A stretch of 64,000 nucleotides of DNA from Flavobacterium sp. (GTDB taxonomy: Bacteria > Bacteroidota > Bacteroidia > Flavobacteriales > Flavobacteriaceae). Of the stretch, positions 7,390-64,000 are shown one piece after another. Under the pieces are notes generated by a model. It was not told the DNA's origin. It saw nothing but the letters and a program-made list of their open reading frames with translations, and did no database searches. Made by a program: the position numbers and the translations under genes. The DNA lies in NCBI GenBank assembly GCA_014379405.1, contig JACMLU010000010.1:124001-188000 (forward strand). Direction: 5' to 3'. Every line of letters begins with the position of its first letter. Position 1 is the stretch's first letter.

Positions 7390-7428
7390 TTGTAATACTT
7401 TGTTTTTAGCCCCGGTAGTAGCGGCATA

Positions 7429-7508
7429 CTCTTGTGGCGGTGTTCGCCACAAGAGATATAGCGGATAACAGGAATAGCTCCTGATTGCCACGTTCCTCGC
7501 AATGACAG
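7429..7508. repeat. Perfect 11-bp hairpin plus GTCATTGCGAGGA-type repeat fragment
   Basis: CTCTTGTGGCG (7429-7439) and its exact complement (7445-7455) form a 5-base-loop hairpin. Bases 7484-7508 read, on the minus strand, CTGTCATTGCGAGGAACG followed by TGGCAAT, a well-known interspersed bacterial repeat type. Together they occupy the leader between udk and the divIC-like gene. Confidence 0.65.
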
Positions 7509-28363: not shown

Positions 28364-28411
28364 GGTTAATTGTTTAACCGGTTATTTGGTTAACCGATTA
28401 AACAATTAACC
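28364..28411. repeat. Inverted repeat between permease and response regulator
   Basis: Arms 28364-28384 and 28391-28411 (21 bases each) pair at 20 positions around a 6-base loop. The composition is GGTTAATTGTTTAACC-like, with no T run after it. It may be a weak terminator or a regulatory dyad for the following gene. Confidence 0.6.
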
Positions 28412-54553: not shown

Positions 54554-54653
54554 GTTTTTGGGATTTGCGTTAGGGATTGCAGTGAAAATCCTCCCGATTT
54601 TTTATCGGGAGATTGCAATGGAAAGCCCGACCCTTGCGGTAACGCCCAAAAAC
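54554..54653. repeat. Palindromic element next to the fucI stop
   Basis: Outer arms GTTTTTGGG (54554-54562) and CCCAAAAAC (54645-54653) enclose a perfect inner hairpin CTCCCGAT / ATCGGGAG (54591-54598, 54604-54611). The pieces GATTGCAGTG and GATTGCAATG flank the inner hairpin in direct orientation. It resembles a short interspersed flavobacterial repeat. Confidence 0.55.
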
Positions 54654-56721: not shown

Positions 56722-57681
56722 ATGGCATTATTAAAAAGAATTAATGAAAAAGCAAAAGCATACCTAAGTTCTGGATTTGGGGTGAATACAAATAGTTATG
56801 GAGGCCGTTTTGTGAATAAAAACGGAACTGCCAATGTGGAGAAACGAGGGATGAATCTATTGCATCGCATCAGTTGGTATCACACGATGATCGAGATGCC
56901 TGCTTGGAAATTTATGTTGATTCTTTTGACTTTTTATGTGTGTATCAATTTTGTTTTTGCAACGATTTATTTTGTCATTGGTATCGAACATTTGAATGGC
57001 ATCGATTCTTCCGGTTCTGAATGGGTCAAGTTTGGACAAACTTACTTTTTTAGTGCGCAAACTTTTACCACAGTGGGTTACGGTCACATAAGTCCTTCCG
57101 GTTTTTTGGCGAGTACTGTTTCGGCATTGGAAGCCTTGATTGGTTTGTTGAGTTTTGCCATTGCCACTGGATTGTTCTTTGGACGTTTTAGTAAACCCGT
57201 TGCCTTTTTGAAGTTTTCCCATAATGCAATAATTGCTCCCTATAAAGATATGACGGCTTTGATGATTCGTCTGACTCCTTTTAAAAATACCAATTTAACC
57301 GATGCCGAAGCCAAAATAACGGTAGGGATAAGTGTGGAAGAAGACGGTCTAATGAAAAATAAATTCTATTCGCTTGATTTGGAATTGGATAAAATAAATG
57401 CTTTAACTTTGAGTTGGACTCTGGTACATCCCATCACGGAAGATAGTCCTTTGTATCAATTTACAAAAGAAGATTTTGAAACCATCAACGGCGAAATTCT
57501 GGTTTTTATCAAAACTTTCGACGATATGTTCAGCAATACAGTTGCCATTCGAACTTCCTATACTTTTGATGAAGTAGAGTATGGAGCCAAGTTTCATCCG
57601 ATGTATTCGAGAAATGATGCCAACACCAAAACGATTTTGCATCTGGATAAATTAAATCATTTCGAAAGAGTTGCTTTATAA
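56722..57681 (+). CDS. Inward-rectifier (KirBac-type) potassium channel
   Basis: The product has 319 residues with two membrane helices (about 70-92 and 130-155). The selectivity filter TVGYGH (about 118-123) sits in 'SAQTFTTVGYGHISPSGF'. A C-terminal cytoplasmic immunoglobulin-like domain follows ('RLTPFKNTNLTDAEAKITVG', 'LSWTLVHPITEDSPLYQFTK'). A slide helix precedes the first membrane helix ('RISWYHTMIEMPAWKFM'). It is a tetrameric K+ channel in the inner membrane. The gene is independent of the following CarH-like gene by strand and a 51-base gap. Confidence 0.93.
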   Translation: MALLKRINEKAKAYLSSGFGVNTNSYGGRFVNKNGTANVEKRGMNLLHRISWYHTMIEMPAWKFMLILLTFYVCINFVFATIYFVIGIEHLNGIDSSGSEWVKFGQTYFFSAQTFTTVGYGHISPSGFLASTVSALEALIGLLSFAIATGLFFGRFSKPVAFLKFSHNAIIAPYKDMTALMIRLTPFKNTNLTDAEAKITVGISVEEDGLMKNKFYSLDLELDKINALTLSWTLVHPITEDSPLYQFTKEDFETINGEILVFIKTFDDMFSNTVAIRTSYTFDEVEYGAKFHPMYSRNDANTKTILHLDKLNHFERVAL

Positions 57682-57732
57682 TTTTAGGGTCTAAGATATA
57701 TTTCATTACATTTGTTTATTAAATTTCTATAA

Positions 57733-58632
57733 ATGATAAACAATGTTAAATCTGTCTTTAGTATAAAAGACCTTGAAAACCTATCTGGAATAAAAGCACA
57801 TACTATCAGGATTTGGGAAAAAAGATATAATATTCTGGAACCTATGCGCTCCACAACCAACATCAGAAATTATGATTTGCCTAATTTGCAAAAATTACTC
57901 AACATCGTTTTATTACATGATTATGGTTATAAAATTTCCAGAATTGCAGAGTATTCGTCAGAAAAAATTGAGCTACTTGTCAGGGAAATTATTTCTGAGA
58001 AAAGTTCTAAAAACCACGCCATTAATGCTTTTAAAATGGCAATGGTCAATTTTGATCAAGCTTTGTTTTTCAATACCTATAATAGTCTGCTTTCAGAAAA
58101 AACTTTTCGTGAAATTTTTTATGATGTTGTAATTCCGTTGATGGAAGAAATCGGATTGTTATGGCAATCAGGTACCATAACTCCAGCACAGGAGCATTTT
58201 ATTTCCTTTTTAATCAAACAAAAATTACTCATAAATACCGAAAAAATACAGGTTTTGGAACCTACAAGAAACGATAAAGTTTTTGTGTTGTATCTCCCAG
58301 AAAACGAAATTCACGAGTTGGGTTTGATGTATTTGAATTATGAAATCTTGTTAAATGGCTATAAAACAATTTATCTTGGCGAGAGTGTTCCGATAGATAG
58401 TTTAAAGGACATGAAGCAATATTTTGACAATATTGTTTACATTTCCTATCTGACAGTTCAGCCAACAAGAGATGCAATTGATGATTATTTGAAAGAAATT
58501 GCTAACGAAATTATGGATGATCATTCACAAGTTTGGTTGTTGGGTAGAATGACCCAGTTTATTGATGTTGACCAGCGGCCAAAAGCTATTTCTGTCTTTA
58601 ATTCCATTTCCGATTTGGTTAGCGAATTGTAA
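57733..58632 (+). CDS. CarH/LitR-like MerR regulator with cobalamin-binding photosensory domain
   Basis: The product has 299 residues. The N-terminal MerR winged helix ('FSIKDLENLSGIKAHTIRIW', 'EKRYNILEPMR', 'RNYDLPNLQKLLNIVLLHDY') is followed by a helical bundle with the Wx9EH signature (Trp144 to His155, 'WQSGTITPAQEH') that in CarH caps the adenosyl group. A B12-binding Rossmann domain then has ExHxxG, His194 in 'NEIHELG', as lower cobalt ligand. CarH binds operators as a dark tetramer and falls apart in light. Here it directly precedes carotenoid and photolyase genes, matching light-induced carotenogenesis. The function is inferred from motifs plus context. Confidence 0.88.
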   Translation: MINNVKSVFSIKDLENLSGIKAHTIRIWEKRYNILEPMRSTTNIRNYDLPNLQKLLNIVLLHDYGYKISRIAEYSSEKIELLVREIISEKSSKNHAINAFKMAMVNFDQALFFNTYNSLLSEKTFREIFYDVVIPLMEEIGLLWQSGTITPAQEHFISFLIKQKLLINTEKIQVLEPTRNDKVFVLYLPENEIHELGLMYLNYEILLNGYKTIYLGESVPIDSLKDMKQYFDNIVYISYLTVQPTRDAIDDYLKEIANEIMDDHSQVWLLGRMTQFIDVDQRPKAISVFNSISDLVSEL

Positions 58633-58653
58633 TTAATTGTTAATGGATTAGGT

Positions 58654-58684
58654 TTTGTTTAACTTTTTTGTATATTTGTTCAAC
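58654..58684 (+). promoter_or_regulatory. Direct-repeat operator and -7 box before crtI
   Basis: TTTGTTTAAC (58654-58663) recurs as TTTGTTCAAC (58675-58684), exactly 21 bases, or two helical turns, apart. The -7 box TATATTTG (58671-58678) overlaps the second copy. The second copy ends 2 bases before the crtI ATG. No TTG stands at the usual 17-21 base distance, so a regulator-dependent promoter is plausible. Confidence 0.55.
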
Positions 58685-58686
58685 AA

Positions 58687-60156
58687 ATGAAAAAATCAAT
58701 TACAATAATAGGTTCAGGATTTTCGGCATTGGCAGCTTCTTGCTATTTGGCGAAAGAGGGTTTTGAGGTAACGATACTCGAAAAAAACAATACTGTTGGA
58801 GGTCGAGCTCGGCAACTTTCAAAAGATGGTTTTACTTTCGATATAGGTCCAACTTGGTATTGGATGCCGGATGTATTCGAGAAATTTTTTGCTGATTTTG
58901 ACAAAAAACCTTCGGATTATTATCATTTGGACAAACTAAATCCTGCTTACGAAGTTTATTTTGATAAAGTAGATTCAATTAAAATCCCAGATAATTTAGC
59001 CGATATTCTATTCATTTTTGAAAAGGAGGAAAAAGGAAGTGCTAAACATTTAAATAAATTTTTGGATAATGCCAAACACAATTATGATGTAGCCATCAAA
59101 GATTTGGTCTATCGTCCCGGAATTTCGATAACCGAATTGATTACGCCAGTTACCATCAAAAAAGTAAATCAATTTTTTAGCAGCATTAGAACCACGGTTC
59201 GAAAAAAAATCAAGAACCATCGTTTGCAACAAATAATGGAATTTCCCGTTTTGTTTCTAGGAGCAAAACCATCCAATACACCTTCATTCTATAGTTTTAT
59301 GAATTATGCGGATTTCGGTTTGGGTACTTGGCATCCTAAAGGCGGAATGTATGAAGTAGTCAAAGCAATGGTAACCCTGGCGGTAGAATTGGGCGTAAAA
59401 ATTGAAACCAACCAAAATGTCGAAAAAATTAACGTCGAAAATGGAGTGGTAAAAAGTGTGGTTTCCAACGGAATCACTATTGAGTCCGATGTCGTTTTGA
59501 GTGGTGCCGATTACCATCACACGGAAACTTTGTTAGACGAAAAATATAGAGGTTACTCCGAAGAATATTGGGACAGCAAGATTTTCGCTCCATCATCCTT
59601 GTTGTTTTACGTAGGTTTTGACAAGAAAATAGAGAATGTTTCGCATCATACTTTGTTTTTCGATACCGATTTTGACGTGCATGCCAAAGATATTTACGAC
59701 AATCCGAAATGGCCTGAAAAACCGCTTTTTTATGCCAGTTTTCCAAGTATGACCGATTCGACAGTCGCACCCGAAGGTACTGAAGCCGGCATATTCTTGA
59801 TTCCCATAGCACCCGGAATTGAAGACACGCCAGAAATCAGGGAAAAATATTTTGAAAGTATTATAGCTAGATTTGAAACCTTAACCAATCAAAATGTTTC
59901 AAAAAACATTATCTTTAAGGAAAGTTTTTGCGTAAATGACTTTGTCAACGATTACAATTCATATAAAGGTAATGCTTATGGCTTAGCCAACATTCTTACC
60001 CAAACCGCTTTTTTAAGACCCAAGATTATTAGCAAAAAAGTCAAGAATTTATTTTTTACTGGACAATTAACCGTTCCCGGACCGGGAGTTCCTCCATCGA
60101 TAATTTCAGGAAAAATAGTGTCGGATTTGATTAAAAAACAATTTACAAATATTTAA
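58687..60156 (+). CDS. crtI: Phytoene desaturase
   Basis: This 489-residue FAD enzyme has the dinucleotide motif 'IIGSGFSALAASCYLAKEGF' at the N-terminus, 'VGGRARQLSKDGFTFDIGPT', and the C-terminal CrtI signature 'LFFTGQLTVPGPGVPPSIIS'. It introduces the double bonds that turn phytoene into lycopene. It is the first gene of the carotenoid unit; crtB begins 6 bases after its stop. Its expression should respond to the CarH-like protein via the repeat just upstream. Confidence 0.95.
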   Translation: MKKSITIIGSGFSALAASCYLAKEGFEVTILEKNNTVGGRARQLSKDGFTFDIGPTWYWMPDVFEKFFADFDKKPSDYYHLDKLNPAYEVYFDKVDSIKIPDNLADILFIFEKEEKGSAKHLNKFLDNAKHNYDVAIKDLVYRPGISITELITPVTIKKVNQFFSSIRTTVRKKIKNHRLQQIMEFPVLFLGAKPSNTPSFYSFMNYADFGLGTWHPKGGMYEVVKAMVTLAVELGVKIETNQNVEKINVENGVVKSVVSNGITIESDVVLSGADYHHTETLLDEKYRGYSEEYWDSKIFAPSSLLFYVGFDKKIENVSHHTLFFDTDFDVHAKDIYDNPKWPEKPLFYASFPSMTDSTVAPEGTEAGIFLIPIAPGIEDTPEIREKYFESIIARFETLTNQNVSKNIIFKESFCVNDFVNDYNSYKGNAYGLANILTQTAFLRPKIISKKVKNLFFTGQLTVPGPGVPPSIISGKIVSDLIKKQFTNI

Positions 60157-60161
60157 TAGCT

Positions 60162-61001
60162 ATGAAACAATTATTTGATGAAGTATCGTTTAAATGCAGT
60201 GTTTTGGTAACCAAAAGTTACAGCACTTCTTTTTCGTTGGCTGTTAAAATGCTAGCTCCAAGTATTCGGGAAGCCATTTACAGTATCTATGGCTTTGTGC
60301 GTTTTGCGGACGAAATTGTAGATTCTTTTCACGGTTTCGACAAGGAAACATTGATTAATGACTTTGAAAACGAATATTACAAAGCTCAAAAAATGGGTAT
60401 TAGCTTGAACCCAATTTTGAATTCTTTTCAACACACGGTAAAGGAATACAATATTACGGACGATTTGATTCAGTCTTTTTTGAAGAGTATGAAAATGGAT
60501 TTAATCAAATCGGATTATCATAACAAGCAGGAATATGACGACTATATTTATGGTTCGGCTGACGTGGTGGGGTTGATGTGTTTGAAAGTTTTTGTGAAAG
60601 GTGACGATCAAAAATTCGAAGAGCTGAAAGGTGAAGCGATGCGATTGGGATCTGCTTTCCAGAAAGTGAATTTCTTGCGTGATTTGAAAGACGATAATTT
60701 AATTTTGAACCGAAATTATTTTCCAGGAGTCGATTTGAATTCTTTTGATGAAAAAGCTAAAGGAATGATTATCAAAGAAATTGAAGAAGATTTTCGAGTA
60801 GCATTGCAAGGAATTAAAAAGTTGCCTTTGGAAGCTAAATTCGGGGTATATACAGCCTATGTATATTATAAAAAATTATTGCGAAAGTTGGAAAACACGC
60901 CTTGTCATGAAATTGGAAATTCAAGAATTAGAGTTTCCAATTATACAAAAGGACTCTTGTTTGCCAATTCTTTCGTATCTTACAAATTGAAATTGGTCTA
61001 A
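60162..61001 (+). CDS. crtB: Phytoene synthase
   Basis: The 279-residue product is a trans-isoprenyl diphosphate synthase, head-to-head type. The two aspartate-rich motifs are DEIVD ('FVRFADEIVDSFHG') and DLKDD ('VNFLRDLKDDNLILNRNYFP'). 'YCSTSF'-like 'TKSYSTSFSLAVKMLAPSIR' opens the protein. It condenses two geranylgeranyl diphosphates to phytoene. A crtE (GGPP synthase) gene is not in this window. Confidence 0.95.
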   Translation: MKQLFDEVSFKCSVLVTKSYSTSFSLAVKMLAPSIREAIYSIYGFVRFADEIVDSFHGFDKETLINDFENEYYKAQKMGISLNPILNSFQHTVKEYNITDDLIQSFLKSMKMDLIKSDYHNKQEYDDYIYGSADVVGLMCLKVFVKGDDQKFEELKGEAMRLGSAFQKVNFLRDLKDDNLILNRNYFPGVDLNSFDEKAKGMIIKEIEEDFRVALQGIKKLPLEAKFGVYTAYVYYKKLLRKLENTPCHEIGNSRIRVSNYTKGLLFANSFVSYKLKLV

Positions 61002-61036
61002 ATTTCTATTTTATTTAATTTATTAAACGTTCTGAA

Positions 61037-61477
61037 ATGATTTCTTTTTTGATTTTTTTGGCTACTTATTTGATTATGGAATGTATTACTTGGTGCACTC
61101 ATAAATTTGTGATGCATGGTTTTTTATGGTATTTACACGCTGATCATCACCAACCTAAATACGCACATATTTTCGAGCGCAATGATTTATTTTTTGTGAT
61201 TTTTGCCATTCCAAGTATTCTGCTTTTTTATTTTGGAGCAGAAGCTGGTTTTGACTTCAAGTTCTTCATCGGATTAGGGATTTTTGCTTACGGATTGAGT
61301 TATTTTATTGTACACGATATTTTTATCCATCAACGATTTAAGTTGTTTAAAAATACCAAAAACAAATACTTACTCGCTTTACGAAAAGGGCATAAAGTGC
61401 ATCACAAACATTTAGGAAAAGAAGAAGGCGAATGTTTCGGTATGTTGTTTGTGCCTTTCAAATATTTTAAAATTTAG
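61037..61477 (+). CDS. crtZ: Beta-carotene hydroxylase (fatty acid hydroxylase superfamily)
   Basis: This 146-residue membrane protein has the di-iron histidine boxes 'HKFVMHG', 'HADHHQP', 'HDIFIHQR' and 'HKVHHKH', in CrtZ order and size. It hydroxylates the beta-ionone rings to give beta-cryptoxanthin and zeaxanthin. Expected product of the cluster is therefore zeaxanthin; a ketolase (crtW) is not seen. It is followed by a long inverted repeat before the cyclase gene. Confidence 0.93.
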   Translation: MISFLIFLATYLIMECITWCTHKFVMHGFLWYLHADHHQPKYAHIFERNDLFFVIFAIPSILLFYFGAEAGFDFKFFIGLGIFAYGLSYFIVHDIFIHQRFKLFKNTKNKYLLALRKGHKVHHKHLGKEEGECFGMLFVPFKYFKI

Positions 61478-61489
61478 TTTTTTTGTGTT

Positions 61490-61551
61490 ATTTCGACGAA
61501 GGAGAAATCACATAACGAGAGCAACTGTTGTGATTTCTCCTTCGTCGAAAT
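61490..61551. repeat. Perfect 23-base inverted repeat in the carotenoid operon
   Basis: Arms 61490-61512 and 61529-61551 are exact complements around a 16-base loop. The core reads TTTCGACGAAGGAGAAATC and is extended at the right end by GACA, giving the common TGTCATTTCGACGAAGGAG form on the minus strand. The same family (TGTCATTGCGAGGA form) is partly present at 7484-7508. It lacks a T run, so it is better described as an interspersed repeat than a terminator. Confidence 0.8.
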
Positions 61552-61602
61552 GACAACATTGTATAAAATAATAAAAGCCCGAATGGCGGTCAAAAAAACA
61601 AT

Positions 61603-62304
61603 ATGTCGTTATACTTTTTTTTAAATATTGCTTCTTTTATGATTCCGTTTCTGTACAGTTTCGAAAGCAGGATGAAGTATATCAAACGATGGAAAGCAGT
61701 TTTTTCGGCGATAATTATCACGGCAATTTTCTTCATTATTTGGGATGTCATTTTTACCAAAATAGGAGTGTGGAGTTTCAATCCGCGTTACCATTCGGGA
61801 ATTGAATTTTTTGATTTACCAATTGAGGAATGGTTATTTTTCATCTGTATTCCTTATGCAAGCCTCTTTATTCATTTTGCTTTTCATTATTTTTCCCCAA
61901 AGGTTTCGTTGACGGACAAAACGGTGAAAATCATTTATTGGATTTTAATGTTGGTGCTTTTACCGATAATTTTTTTTCATTACGATAAATTATACACGGC
62001 GATAAATTATGGTTTTTTGGTGCTGCTTTTGACTTACACGGTTTTCAAGGTTCCCCATATTTTGAACACGTTTTTCATCACTTTTCTAATCATATTGATT
62101 CCATTTGCCTTAGTCAACGGGATTTTGACAGGCAGTTTTATTGACGAACCGGTTGTCATTTATAACAATGCAGAAAATTTGGGAATTAGACTGGGAACTA
62201 TCCCAATTGAAGATATCGGTTATGCCTTTTCGATGTTGTTGATGAGTTTGGTTTTGATTAAAAAAATAGAAAAAATTGGACAAGGAATTGATAGATTTTT
62301 TTGA
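61603..62304 (+). CDS. Lycopene cyclase, fused CrtYcd type
   Basis: The product has 233 residues and six to seven membrane helices in two similar halves. Each half has the cyclase motif P-x-E-E/D: 'FFDLPIEEWLFFICIPYASL' and 'GTIPIEDIGYAFSMLLMSL'. It belongs to the heterodimer-type (CrtYc/CrtYd) lycopene beta-cyclases fused in one chain and not to the FAD-type CrtY. It cyclises lycopene to beta-carotene, placing it between CrtI and CrtZ in the pathway. Confidence 0.92.
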   Translation: MSLYFFLNIASFMIPFLYSFESRMKYIKRWKAVFSAIIITAIFFIIWDVIFTKIGVWSFNPRYHSGIEFFDLPIEEWLFFICIPYASLFIHFAFHYFSPKVSLTDKTVKIIYWILMLVLLPIIFFHYDKLYTAINYGFLVLLLTYTVFKVPHILNTFFITFLIILIPFALVNGILTGSFIDEPVVIYNNAENLGIRLGTIPIEDIGYAFSMLLMSLVLIKKIEKIGQGIDRFF

Positions 62305-62377
62305 ATGAGAAAACATAATCTACAAGATTTGCATTAAAAAACCAATGCACAAAGCATAGAATCATAAAAACAAAAAT

Positions 62378-62839
62378 ATGAAAGTATATAAAAAAGAAAC
62401 CGTCCAGCACATCAATGCAAGTATCGAAGAATGTTGGGCTTTCTTCTCTAGTCCAAGAAATTTGCAAAAGATTACTCCTGAAACTATGGGTTTCAATATC
62501 ACGGATTTCGATGGTAAAAATATGTATGCCGGACAAATTATCCAGTATAAAGTGTCGCCGCTTGCCGGATTGAAATTAAGTTGGACAACGGAAATCACTT
62601 TCGTGAAAGATAATAGCTATTTCATTGACGAACAACGTTTTGGTCCTTATGCGCTTTGGCATCACAAACATTTTTTTGAACCAACCGAGAACGGAACAAA
62701 AATGACCGATGTGGTGCATTATGCCTTGCCTTTGGGTTTCATTGGGAGAATTATGAATACCTTGGTGGTGAAAAATAAATTAAAAACCATCTTTGATTAC
62801 AGAATTGTAAAAGTGAACGAGATTTTCAATTCCAAATAA
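62378..62839 (+). CDS. SRPBCC-family ligand-binding protein
   Basis: The 153-residue START/Bet v1-like protein has 'VYKKETVQHINASIEECWAF', 'FSSPRNLQKITPETMGFNIT', 'YFIDEQRFGPYALWHHKHFF' and 'GTKMTDVVHYALPLGFIGRI'. It binds hydrophobic ligands in a helix-grip pocket. Homologues are often called cell-division inhibitors, but a lipid or carotenoid-linked role is equally possible here (inference). Its stop overlaps the photolyase start by one base (TAATG). Confidence 0.85.
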   Translation: MKVYKKETVQHINASIEECWAFFSSPRNLQKITPETMGFNITDFDGKNMYAGQIIQYKVSPLAGLKLSWTTEITFVKDNSYFIDEQRFGPYALWHHKHFFEPTENGTKMTDVVHYALPLGFIGRIMNTLVVKNKLKTIFDYRIVKVNEIFNSK

Positions 62840-64000
62840 TGAATAAACAGGCAGTAACCTTTTTTTGGTTTCGTAGAGATTTGCGATTAGAAGATAACGT
62901 TGGTTTGTTTCACGCTTTGGAATCTCAATATCCAGTTATTCCCTTGTTTATTTTCGATGAGGCTATTTTAGAAAGTTTGCCAAAAAATGACGCCAGAGTA
63001 GGTTTTATTCACGATTCACTTTCGAAAATAAATCAAAAACTACAGGAATTGGGAAGTTCTCTTTTGGTAAAAAAGGGAAAAACCCAGGGAGTTTGGCAAG
63101 AACTCCTTGAAGAATTCGAAGTAAAGGAAGTTTTTTTCAACAAAGATTACGAGCCTTACGCCATCAAAAGAGATTTGGCCATTTGCGTACTATTGGAAGC
63201 CAATAAAACAGTGCATTTTTCATTCAAAGACCAAGTGATTTTCGAAGAAAAAGAAATCACGAAAGCCGACGGATTGCCTTATACGGTTTACACACCTTAT
63301 AAAAATAAATGGTTGGATAAATACAATTCCATAGCTCCAGTTCAAGAATATGATGCTACAAAATTGTTTTTCAATTTTCATAAAAGCAATTTTATTTTTC
63401 CAACTTTGGAACAAATAGGCTTCGAAGAAAATTCGATAAAAGTGATTCCTCATAATCTGAAAAATGTATCCAATTACCACGAAACTCGTGATTTTCCTGC
63501 TTTGGACAGCACGACACATCTCTCGCCACATCTGCGTTTTGGGACGGTCAGTGTTCGGAAATTGGTGAATTGGGCTGCCAATAAAAACCAAGTGTTTTTG
63601 AGTGAACTGATTTGGAGGGAATTCTTTATGCAAATTTTGTTCAGTTTTCCAAAAGTCGTCACACACAATTTTAAATCGGCTTATGATGGGATTCAATGGC
63701 GGAATGATGAGGAAGATTTCAAACGCTGGTGTTCCGGAACCACGGGTTATCCGATGGTTGATGCTGGAATGCGAGAACTGAATGAAACTGGGTATATGCA
63801 CAACAGAGTTCGAATGGTGGTGGCGAGTTTTCTGTGCAAACATTTGTTGATTAACTGGCAATGGGGCGAAGCTTATTTTGCCGAAAAGTTACTGGATTTT
63901 GAATTGTCTGCCAACGTTGGAAACTGGCAATGGGCTGCGGGAACGGGTTGCGATGCCGCGCCCTATTTTCGAGTTTTCAATCCTGAAATTCAGCTCAAGA
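62839..64000 (+). CDS. phrB: Deoxyribodipyrimidine photolyase/cryptochrome (3' partial)
   Basis: The frame runs off the window end. The first 387 codons cover the N-terminal Rossmann antenna domain ('VTFFWFRRDLRLEDNVGLFH') and most of the FAD-binding helical domain ('HLSPHLRFGTVS', 'SELIWREFFMQILFSFPK', 'GTTGYPMVDAGMRELNETGY', 'MHNRVRMVVASFLCKHLLIN', 'ANVGNWQWAAGTGCDAAPYF'). The conserved 'NRVRMVVASFL' and 'NWQWAAGTGCDA' segments are those of CPD photolyases. It repairs UV-induced pyrimidine dimers with blue light. Coupling by TAATG to the SRPBCC gene places it in the same light-linked transcription unit. The remaining C-terminus is outside the window. Confidence 0.95.
   Translation, partial: MNKQAVTFFWFRRDLRLEDNVGLFHALESQYPVIPLFIFDEAILESLPKNDARVGFIHDSLSKINQKLQELGSSLLVKKGKTQGVWQELLEEFEVKEVFFNKDYEPYAIKRDLAICVLLEANKTVHFSFKDQVIFEEKEITKADGLPYTVYTPYKNKWLDKYNSIAPVQEYDATKLFFNFHKSNFIFPTLEQIGFEENSIKVIPHNLKNVSNYHETRDFPALDSTTHLSPHLRFGTVSVRKLVNWAANKNQVFLSELIWREFFMQILFSFPKVVTHNFKSAYDGIQWRNDEEDFKRWCSGTTGYPMVDAGMRELNETGYMHNRVRMVVASFLCKHLLINWQWGEAYFAEKLLDFELSANVGNWQWAAGTGCDAAPYFRVFNPEIQLK

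Follow-up and report, generated by a model that had tools for sequence, protein, structure and literature searches.

A conserved 34-base inverted repeat and the predicted light regulon of a CarH-type regulator in Flavobacteriaceae

What controls the carotenoid and photolyase genes of Flavobacterium, and how far beyond them does that control reach? The question is raised by the last part of a 64,000-nucleotide stretch of Flavobacterium sp. DNA (the whole stretch is called the window throughout), in which a gene for a CarH/LitR-like regulator is followed by carotenoid genes starting with crtI, an SRPBCC gene and a photolyase gene. An earlier sequence-only reading of the window had described this gene set, and the description holds: the open reading frames (ORFs) are in place and the families are recovered by Pfam and NCBIfam profiles, for two of the genes with reservations given below. 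It had also placed the operator in a direct repeat before crtI, two copies of TTTGTTyAAC 21 bases apart. The operator form we arrive at is different: the conserved element is a 34-base inverted repeat, TTTGTTTA-N18-TAAACAAA (N18, a spacer of 18 bases), from which the two promoters of the cluster deviate by one mismatch each.

We consider it quite likely that the CarH-type protein represses its own promoter and the crtI-photolyase operon in the dark through this inverted repeat, that light releases it, and that the regulon is family-wide. Gene content and the sequence, spacing, conservation, genomic distribution and regulator association of the site are observations; we infer that the regulator binds the site, that it binds adenosylcobalamin (AdoCbl), that binding represses, and that light relieves repression.

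The operator at the two cluster promoters

The window contains two copies of TTTGTTTA-N18-TAAACAAA with at most one mismatch, at 57711 and 58654, against a Markov expectation of 0.15 per window. Operator 2 (58654) stands upstream of crtI, and its final base coincides with the first base of the crtI start codon (ATG). Operator 1, at the regulator promoter (57711-57744), had been missed by the earlier reading. It matches TTTGTTTA-N18-TNAACAA exactly, and its second arm falls inside the first codons of the regulator gene (Met-Ile-Asn-Asn). We compared these promoters with those of 29 family loci, 28 of which lie outside the genus and one inside it, and of 80 loci on titled public contigs, most of which belong to Flavobacterium; the loci are not independent, since many come from one genus. 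Upstream of crtI, the relatives share TTTGTTTA, 18 bases and TNAACAAA. The form TTTGTTTA (at most one mismatch)-N18-TnnACA occurs at 67 of 107 crtI promoters (our own, 54 of 77 in titled public contigs and 12 of 29 in family loci) and at 99 of 109 regulator promoters. Among the ten regulator loci that fail this count, four (L102, L103, L105 and L111) show by eye a similar pair, with a spacer one base longer and entirely upstream of the regulator gene.

The position of arm 2 in coding sequence means that conservation of the site can be tested by synonymous codon choice. The first Asn codon (codons 2-4) is AAC in 134 of 136 regulators, whereas AAC accounts for 863 of 2678 Asn codons (32%) over the remainder of these genes, and the next Asn codon is AAT in 73 and AAC in 13.

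The 21-base direct repeat sits inside Operator 2. The pair does exist, with copies at 58654 and 58675, and it occurs once in the 3.86-Mb genome. A looser form, TTTGTT-N15-TTTG, is present at 54 of 107 crtI promoters, probably because TAnnTTTG is a promoter element. However, the strict pair is found at one of 107 crtI promoters, namely our own. In many relatives the second box reads TTTGCTAAAC; this change destroys the direct repeat and leaves the inverted arm intact. Inverted arms and N18, rather than the repeat, are also what is retained at sites elsewhere. A genome search for TTTGTTyAAC pairs at 21 bp, the check put forward in the earlier reading, returned this one site alone and would have led to the rejection of a real operator. 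An operator made of the direct repeat is thus very improbable, and the strict repeat appears to be an accident of this strain. The half motif at 28370-28378, which the earlier reading had placed in an unrelated inverted repeat, is part of a different sequence, TTAATTGTTTAACCGGTTATTTGGTTAACCGATTA, with no N18 geometry.

The published half-site of CarH is TnnACA, arranged in tandem 11-bp direct repeats (PMC9304148). The half-site TAAACA fits TnnACA, but its copies are inverted and 24 bp apart. Tandem 11-bp CarH repeats were rejected as the operator: a tandem array of three TnnACA units at 11 bp occurs at 0 of 107 crtI promoters, and two tandem nnnnTnnACAn repeats at 2 of 107 on one strand and 3 of 107 on the other.

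A putative -7 box lies between the arms of Operator 2, and another overlaps arm 1 of Operator 1. In the distinct aligned N18 crtI operators, the bases at the -7 box offset are TTTG in 65 of 65, T in 64 of 65 and A in 64 of 65; we take TAnnTTTG to be the -7 consensus. From the position of this box, the crtI mRNA is predicted to be nearly leaderless. A reading of the site as mere -33 and -7 promoter boxes was rejected, as TAnnTTTG stands at its fixed offset in 38 of the 91 distinct perfect copies and is absent there from the other 53, and arm 2 at the regulator is coding; in addition, arm 1 presumably lies too close to the -7 box to be a -33 element. A sigma-70 promoter scan found 28 matches, with 23.1 expected.

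This layout suggests how control might work. In the dark, the regulator with its predicted AdoCbl would sit on the inverted repeat at both promoters. Since each of the two operators covers or contacts the putative -7 box, the bound oligomer would block RNA polymerase. Light would break the predicted adenosylcobalamin, the regulator would let go and the genes would come on. Both repression and release by light are carried over from CarH by homology and should be read as predictions.

Distribution of the site and the predicted regulon

The genome to which the window belongs has five exact places of TTTGTTTA-N18-TNAACAA. Two are the cluster promoters. The third and fourth precede a fasciclin gene (by 28 bases) and a flavin-reductase gene (by 26 bases), and the fifth (C9:64458), within coding sequence, is taken as chance. 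In 41 genomes of the genus, the same pattern with a final A or T, palindromic sites being counted on both strands, matched 123 times on the forward and 106 times on the reverse strand, whereas a reversed control pattern matched 6 and 10 times (229 versus 16, about fourteen-fold). With the arms kept exact and any spacer of 8-28 bases permitted, the 75 matches listed included 41 with 18 bases, 6 with 19, 5 with 17 and 5 with 27; these and the counts of distant sites cover the listed matches.

Such numbers bear on the idea that no specific regulator is involved and that AT-rich Flavobacteriaceae simply carry the motif as a general promoter or repeat element. The arms are AT-rich and TAnnTTTG stands at one fixed offset in the 38 copies mentioned above, but the reversed pattern is far rarer, the other 53 copies lack the box at that offset, fully listed genomes hold only 1-7 distinct sites each, and three of the five genus genomes without the regulator (G166, G170 and G175) have none. 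A generic element is scarcely credible.

Across 149 family genomes, with orthologues called at E < 1e-60, the site occurs in 107 of 111 with an orthologue and in 12 of 38 without (Fisher p about 6e-16), an association that is partly trivial because the regulator's own promoter site is counted; the 38 include nine genomes with only a 32-38% identical homologue. More than 2 kb from the regulator, there are 69 sites in the 22 fully listed genus genomes that have the gene, and 20 of the 22 have at least one.

Could the inverted repeat be read by another protein, for example the TetR_C_23 regulator encoded near some sites, with the CarH-like gene being just a target? Proteins of the TetR type commonly recognise palindromes close to the genes that encode them, genes of the TetR_C_23 cluster have a site at 6 loci among the matches listed, and a few genomes carry sites without a detected CarH-type orthologue. 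Against this stand the site at the CarH-type gene's own promoter in 99 of 109 loci, the fit of the half-site to TnnACA, and a presence of the site that tracks the CarH-type orthologue; a span of 34 bp is presumably also long for one TetR dimer. We think a TetR-type reader quite improbable, and we continue with the CarH-type protein as the reader of the site.

The genes next to the sites suggest what else this protein might control. Adjacent genes were clustered in 60 regions around listed distant sites and in four loci of our own genome, and ten representatives were searched with Pfam. Among the matches listed, the site-adjacent clusters include fasciclin (14 loci), flavin reductase (9), DUF2805 (5) and SRPBCC (4), besides the TetR_C_23 cluster, and a divergent pair of proteorhodopsin and Blh (beta-carotene dioxygenase, PF15461) occurs at 6 loci. 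Smaller sets in the same matches are a CWC-like/periplasmic-binding pair (3), folE (2), CHRD-like (2), TspO (1) and singletons, and at one locus a cryptochrome-like gene lies 188 bases away; the CWC, CHRD and cryptochrome names were assigned by eye. A cryptochrome homologue is also near three of the five DUF2805 sites (L233, L245 and L261). Sites lie inside ORFs in 3 of 69 cases in the fetched regions, and the L241 site is really intergenic, under a spurious ORF. At L241, L265 and L290, the operator stands between the gene for a CWC-like cysteine-rich protein and a periplasmic-binding-protein gene (PF01497), whose product might take part in the uptake of B12 or iron. No cobalamin riboswitch scored above the Rfam gathering threshold in the window or in five loci, the surroundings of L241, L265 and L290 included.

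The earlier reading had extended the regulon to the SRPBCC and photolyase genes of the cluster, and this extension gains support from pairs without adjacent crt genes that carry their own operator in the genus and the family. All four SRPBCC sites lead to photolyase homologues. Seven SRPBCC-photolyase homologue pairs have an operator and no crt gene in the fetched stretch (L174, L189 and L196, which are family loci, and L236, L254, L281 and L282), and their proteins are 46-55% identical to those of the window. Some of them may be paralogues of the window's genes.

Proteorhodopsin would be the most far-reaching target. Of the 149 family genomes, 30 have a PF01036 match, which passes the cut-off in 29, and 26 of the loci had a readable ORF (L312, L319, L321 and L322 had none). 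Of the readable loci, 21 come from genomes with the regulator, and 15 of these have the site, at up to two mismatches, within 300 bases before proteorhodopsin (18 at up to three); of the five from genomes without it, one does, in a genome that is 73% complete. L312, from an 81% complete genome with no detected orthologue, has a one-mismatch site, which makes this two of six; L319, L321, where the gene is broken, and L322, which scores below the family cut-off, all come from regulator genomes and have no site. The shuffles used for these counts preserve base composition only. PF01036 has no match in our own genome, which is 86% complete, so the rhodopsin branch of the regulon is drawn from relatives. 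We found no study of CarH/LitR control of proteorhodopsin among the open-access papers listed (judged by titles, starts of abstracts and word counts), and subscription papers could exist. Texts that mention proteorhodopsin together with CarH or LitR were of a general kind, for the most part reviews, besides a Thermus genome.

Thus, further targets would be proteorhodopsin with divergent blh, fasciclin, flavin reductase, DUF2805, folE, TspO and SRPBCC-photolyase pairs. As the same site, mostly with N18, stands at many promoters in the family, the prediction is that this protein serves many Flavobacteriaceae as their master light regulator, and it is likely that one sensor switches on much of the light response in these bacteria.

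Several observations weigh against so wide a role. The N18 form is missing at 40 of 107 crtI promoters, including 17 of the 29 family loci; most family loci of this kind still carry the regulator-promoter site, and in the 17 crtI may be transcribed from the regulator promoter. Sites occur in genomes without a detected orthologue (G079, and a few each in the genus genomes G151, which is 89% complete, and G168), and G025 has seven matches with a sole homologue that is 32% identical. Conversely, four family genomes with an orthologue have no site (G092, G099, G125 and G137), nor does G181, whose regulator is 45% identical. At proteorhodopsin, three loci from regulator genomes fail with 4-5 mismatches (L297, L304 and L317), and three further ones have 3. 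One flavobacterium, Dokdonia PRO95, is reported to express proteorhodopsin constitutively.

The regulator and its predicted response to light

The regulator gene is present in a single copy in its 3.86-Mb genome (86% complete). The protein has a MerR helix-turn-helix domain (residues 9-76), a B12-binding four-helix domain (97-165) and then a Rossmann domain. Its Pfam content is MerR_1 plus B12-binding_2, and both are present in 44 of 44 relatives scanned. The best solved match in the PDB, by sequence and by fold, is CarH of Thermus thermophilus (TtCarH), at about 19% identity in the fold alignment; the fold model has a pLDDT (predicted local distance difference test score) of 88.8, and the B12 domain reaches a TM-target (template modelling score) of up to 0.84. 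Wx9EH at 144-155 and ExHxxG with His194, both named in the sequence-only reading, are present. In 139 of 139 relatives, W144, E154 and H155 are invariant, E192, H194 and G197 (the D/ExHx2G lower-ligand motif of the Rossmann domain, also supported by the fold match) are kept, and so is the recognition helix RxWE[KR]RY, here RxWEKRY. The AdoCbl-contact residues that were checked (Trp144, Glu154, His155 and His194) are thus invariant among these relatives. The genome encodes a Cob_adeno_trans adenosyltransferase (PF01923), presumably of the PduO type; PF02572 has no match in this 86% complete genome. On the best reading, the protein would be a CarH-type, AdoCbl-dependent repressor. A second class of homologues, 32-38% identical, occurs in G007, G014, G025, G028, G032, G038, G040, G066 and G098; some of these may read the same operator, as G025 has its seven pattern matches.

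Other features of the protein count against a simple CarH assignment. The B12 signature SxT/V plus GG is only partly kept in the 139 relatives (position 238 is S, C or T, 240 is mostly L, F or M, and a single G, G271, is invariant), and the NCBIfam CarH equivalog NF052513 scores 74.6 bits, below its curated cut-off of 400. In addition, Gln145 occupies the position of His132 of TtCarH, with Gln in 137 of 139 relatives and His in 2. In TtCarH, His132 takes the cobalt after illumination, and H132A was mostly tetrameric in light, although an earlier report differed (PMC10442372). The equivalent residue varies in tested B12 photoreceptors, being Arg in CtMerR and Gln in SasPcob, and CtMerR with its Arg still goes from tetramer to monomer in light (PMC11796333). 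This residue is thus no strict requirement for class membership. Given Gln here and Arg or Gln in the tested photoreceptors, a photoresponse of our regulator is plausible, and its release chemistry would have to differ from that of TtCarH.

A related possibility is that the regulator binds the sites and senses B12 status, or works through a partner photoreceptor, rather than responding to light through AdoCbl. The loss of the His132 ligand fits such a scheme, as do the three sites next to a PF01497 gene with its possible role in B12 or iron uptake, and class II LitR of Pseudomonas is described as acting through a LOV partner (PMC9758184). However, the AdoCbl contacts that were checked are invariant, the His132 position varies in B12 photoreceptors that have been tested (CtMerR and SasPcob; PMC11796333), and several target genes are light-related. 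Moreover, class II proteins keep the four-helix B12 part alone (PMC9758184), whereas the second part, a Rossmann domain with H194, is present here. We regard this alternative as unlikely and prefer direct light sensing through AdoCbl.

With direct sensing as the premise, we lean towards a broader proposal, that a divergent CarH branch without the His132 switch and with a new operator is the master light regulator of Flavobacteriaceae for proteorhodopsin, retinal synthesis, carotenoids, photolyase, cryptochrome, pterin synthesis and fasciclin. If this is true, it would depend on the B12 supply whether these bacteria, which are abundant, are able to shut phototrophy down in darkness, and phototrophy would be tied to a vitamin that they may have to import. 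For control of proteorhodopsin in flavobacteria, which are common carriers, reports on strains differ, with a growth response to light in one Dokdonia and none in another; the analysis names a regulator, its predicted 34-bp site and a set of candidate genes. It also points to a natural CarH branch that would have to release DNA without a histidine switch, with a new operator geometry. A Chryseobacterium that turns yellow in light, in which the authors state that they found no gene of a car/lit operon (PMC7064467), is a case in which the 34-bp site might be sought.

The cluster, its neighbourhood and known systems

The gene order regulator-crtI-crtB-crtZ is well conserved among relatives, and the cyclase, SRPBCC and photolyase genes come next in many (Table 1). 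crtI adjoins the regulator in 107 of 110 loci searched; of the three others, L033 stops right behind the regulator gene. Two further proposals of the earlier reading were borne out, the fused CrtYcd-type cyclase and the TAATG overlap (62837-62841) of the SRPBCC stop with the photolyase start; the photolyase gene ends 134 bases past the window. Two names are held less firmly. For the crtZ-like product, there was no relevant Pfam match at E<=5 and no NCBIfam match at 0.001, and the name comes from its position and from His motifs that we take to be those of CrtZ. The SRPBCC name comes from a Polyketide_cyc match below the cut-off.

Table 1. Features of the regulator-carotenoid-photolyase cluster (window coordinates)
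Feature	Coordinates	Strand	Basis or detail
Putative -7 box TACATTTG of regulator promoter	57707..57714	+	Overlaps operator arm 1; sequence and relatives' upstream regions
Operator 1 (autoregulation, predicted)	57711..57744	.	TTTGTTTA 57711-57718, N18, TAAACAAT 57737-57744
CarH/LitR-type regulator	57733..58632	+	Pfam; best PDB match, by sequence and by fold, is T. thermophilus CarH; key residues conserved in 139 relatives
Operator 2 (crt operon, predicted)	58654..58687	.	TTTGTTTA 58654-58661, N18, TCAACAAA 58680-58687
Putative -7 box TATATTTG of crtI promoter	58671..58678	+	Between operator arms
crtI, phytoene desaturase	58687..60156	+	NCBIfam CrtID above cut-off, Pfam
crtB, phytoene synthase	60162..61001	+	SQS_PSY (Pfam/NCBIfam)
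crtZ-like carotenoid hydroxylase	61037..61477	+	His motifs and position
Long hairpin	61491..61550	+	Two perfect 22-base inverted copies between crtZ and cyclase
Two-domain lycopene cyclase, CrtYcd/CarR type	61603..62304	+	Lycopene_cyc and CarR_dom_SF, two stretches each
SRPBCC-like protein	62378..62839	+	Weak, sub-cutoff Polyketide_cyc match; precedes photolyase in many relatives
DNA photolyase	62839..64000	+	DNA_photolyase and FAD_binding_7; stop at window position 64134 (L003:1134)

The gap between crtZ and the cyclase gene (61478-61602) folds at -48.9 kcal/mol (z -9.35). The same gap is about 5 bases in L034 and L108 and more than 170 in L036 and L040. Because it is so short in L034 and L108, the hairpin looks like an inserted repeat, and it may attenuate expression from the cyclase to the photolyase in this strain.

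Directly upstream of the regulator is a gene for an IRK_C inward-rectifier potassium channel (56722-57681), a neighbour shared with many Flavobacterium loci. Downstream of the photolyase (L003:1292-7875, window 64292-70875), the minus strand carries epimerase-like, folE-like, SDR, ABC1-type kinase and TetR_C_23 genes and the plus strand an epimerase-like gene, most of these names being given by eye. A one-mismatch site (L003:6336) lies between the TetR_C_23 gene and the epimerase-like gene, just downstream of the cluster, and this block, with the site between its strands, is probably light-controlled too. Two Flavo-1 RNAs (RF01705) score above the gathering threshold, at 7404-7479 and 54562-54636.

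Among known systems, the regulator is most readily compared with CarH (class I LitR) of T. thermophilus, Bacillus megaterium and Myxococcus. It shares the domain order, Wx9EH, ExHxxG and RxWE[KR]RY, and also the crt linkage, the TnnACA half-site and sites over the core promoter. It differs in that the operator is an inverted repeat with N18 rather than tandem 11-bp direct repeats, that Gln replaces the light-state His, and that the site-bearing genes reach proteorhodopsin, blh, fasciclin, flavin reductase, TspO and folE. In myxobacteria, too, the His after the Trp is reported in many CarH proteins and not in all. CtMerR of Chloracidobacterium thermophilum similarly combines MerR and B12 domains without a His132 equivalent and dissociates in light (PMC11796333), although it has Arg where our regulator has Gln.

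The class II LitR proteins PplR and PmlR of Pseudomonas are also MerR-type repressors, and the predicted gene set here resembles their light regulon, which includes photolyase (PhrB), cryptochrome (CryB) and FolE (PMC9758184). Their site, in contrast, is TGTACA-N12-TGTACA, their B12 part is the four-helix domain only, and they work with a LOV protein. Lastly, CarA of Myxococcus is a MerR-type repressor of crt genes, and the M. xanthus operator has inverted repeats (PMC9304148). CarA lacks the Trp of Wx9EH, whereas W144 is invariant in the regulators described here.

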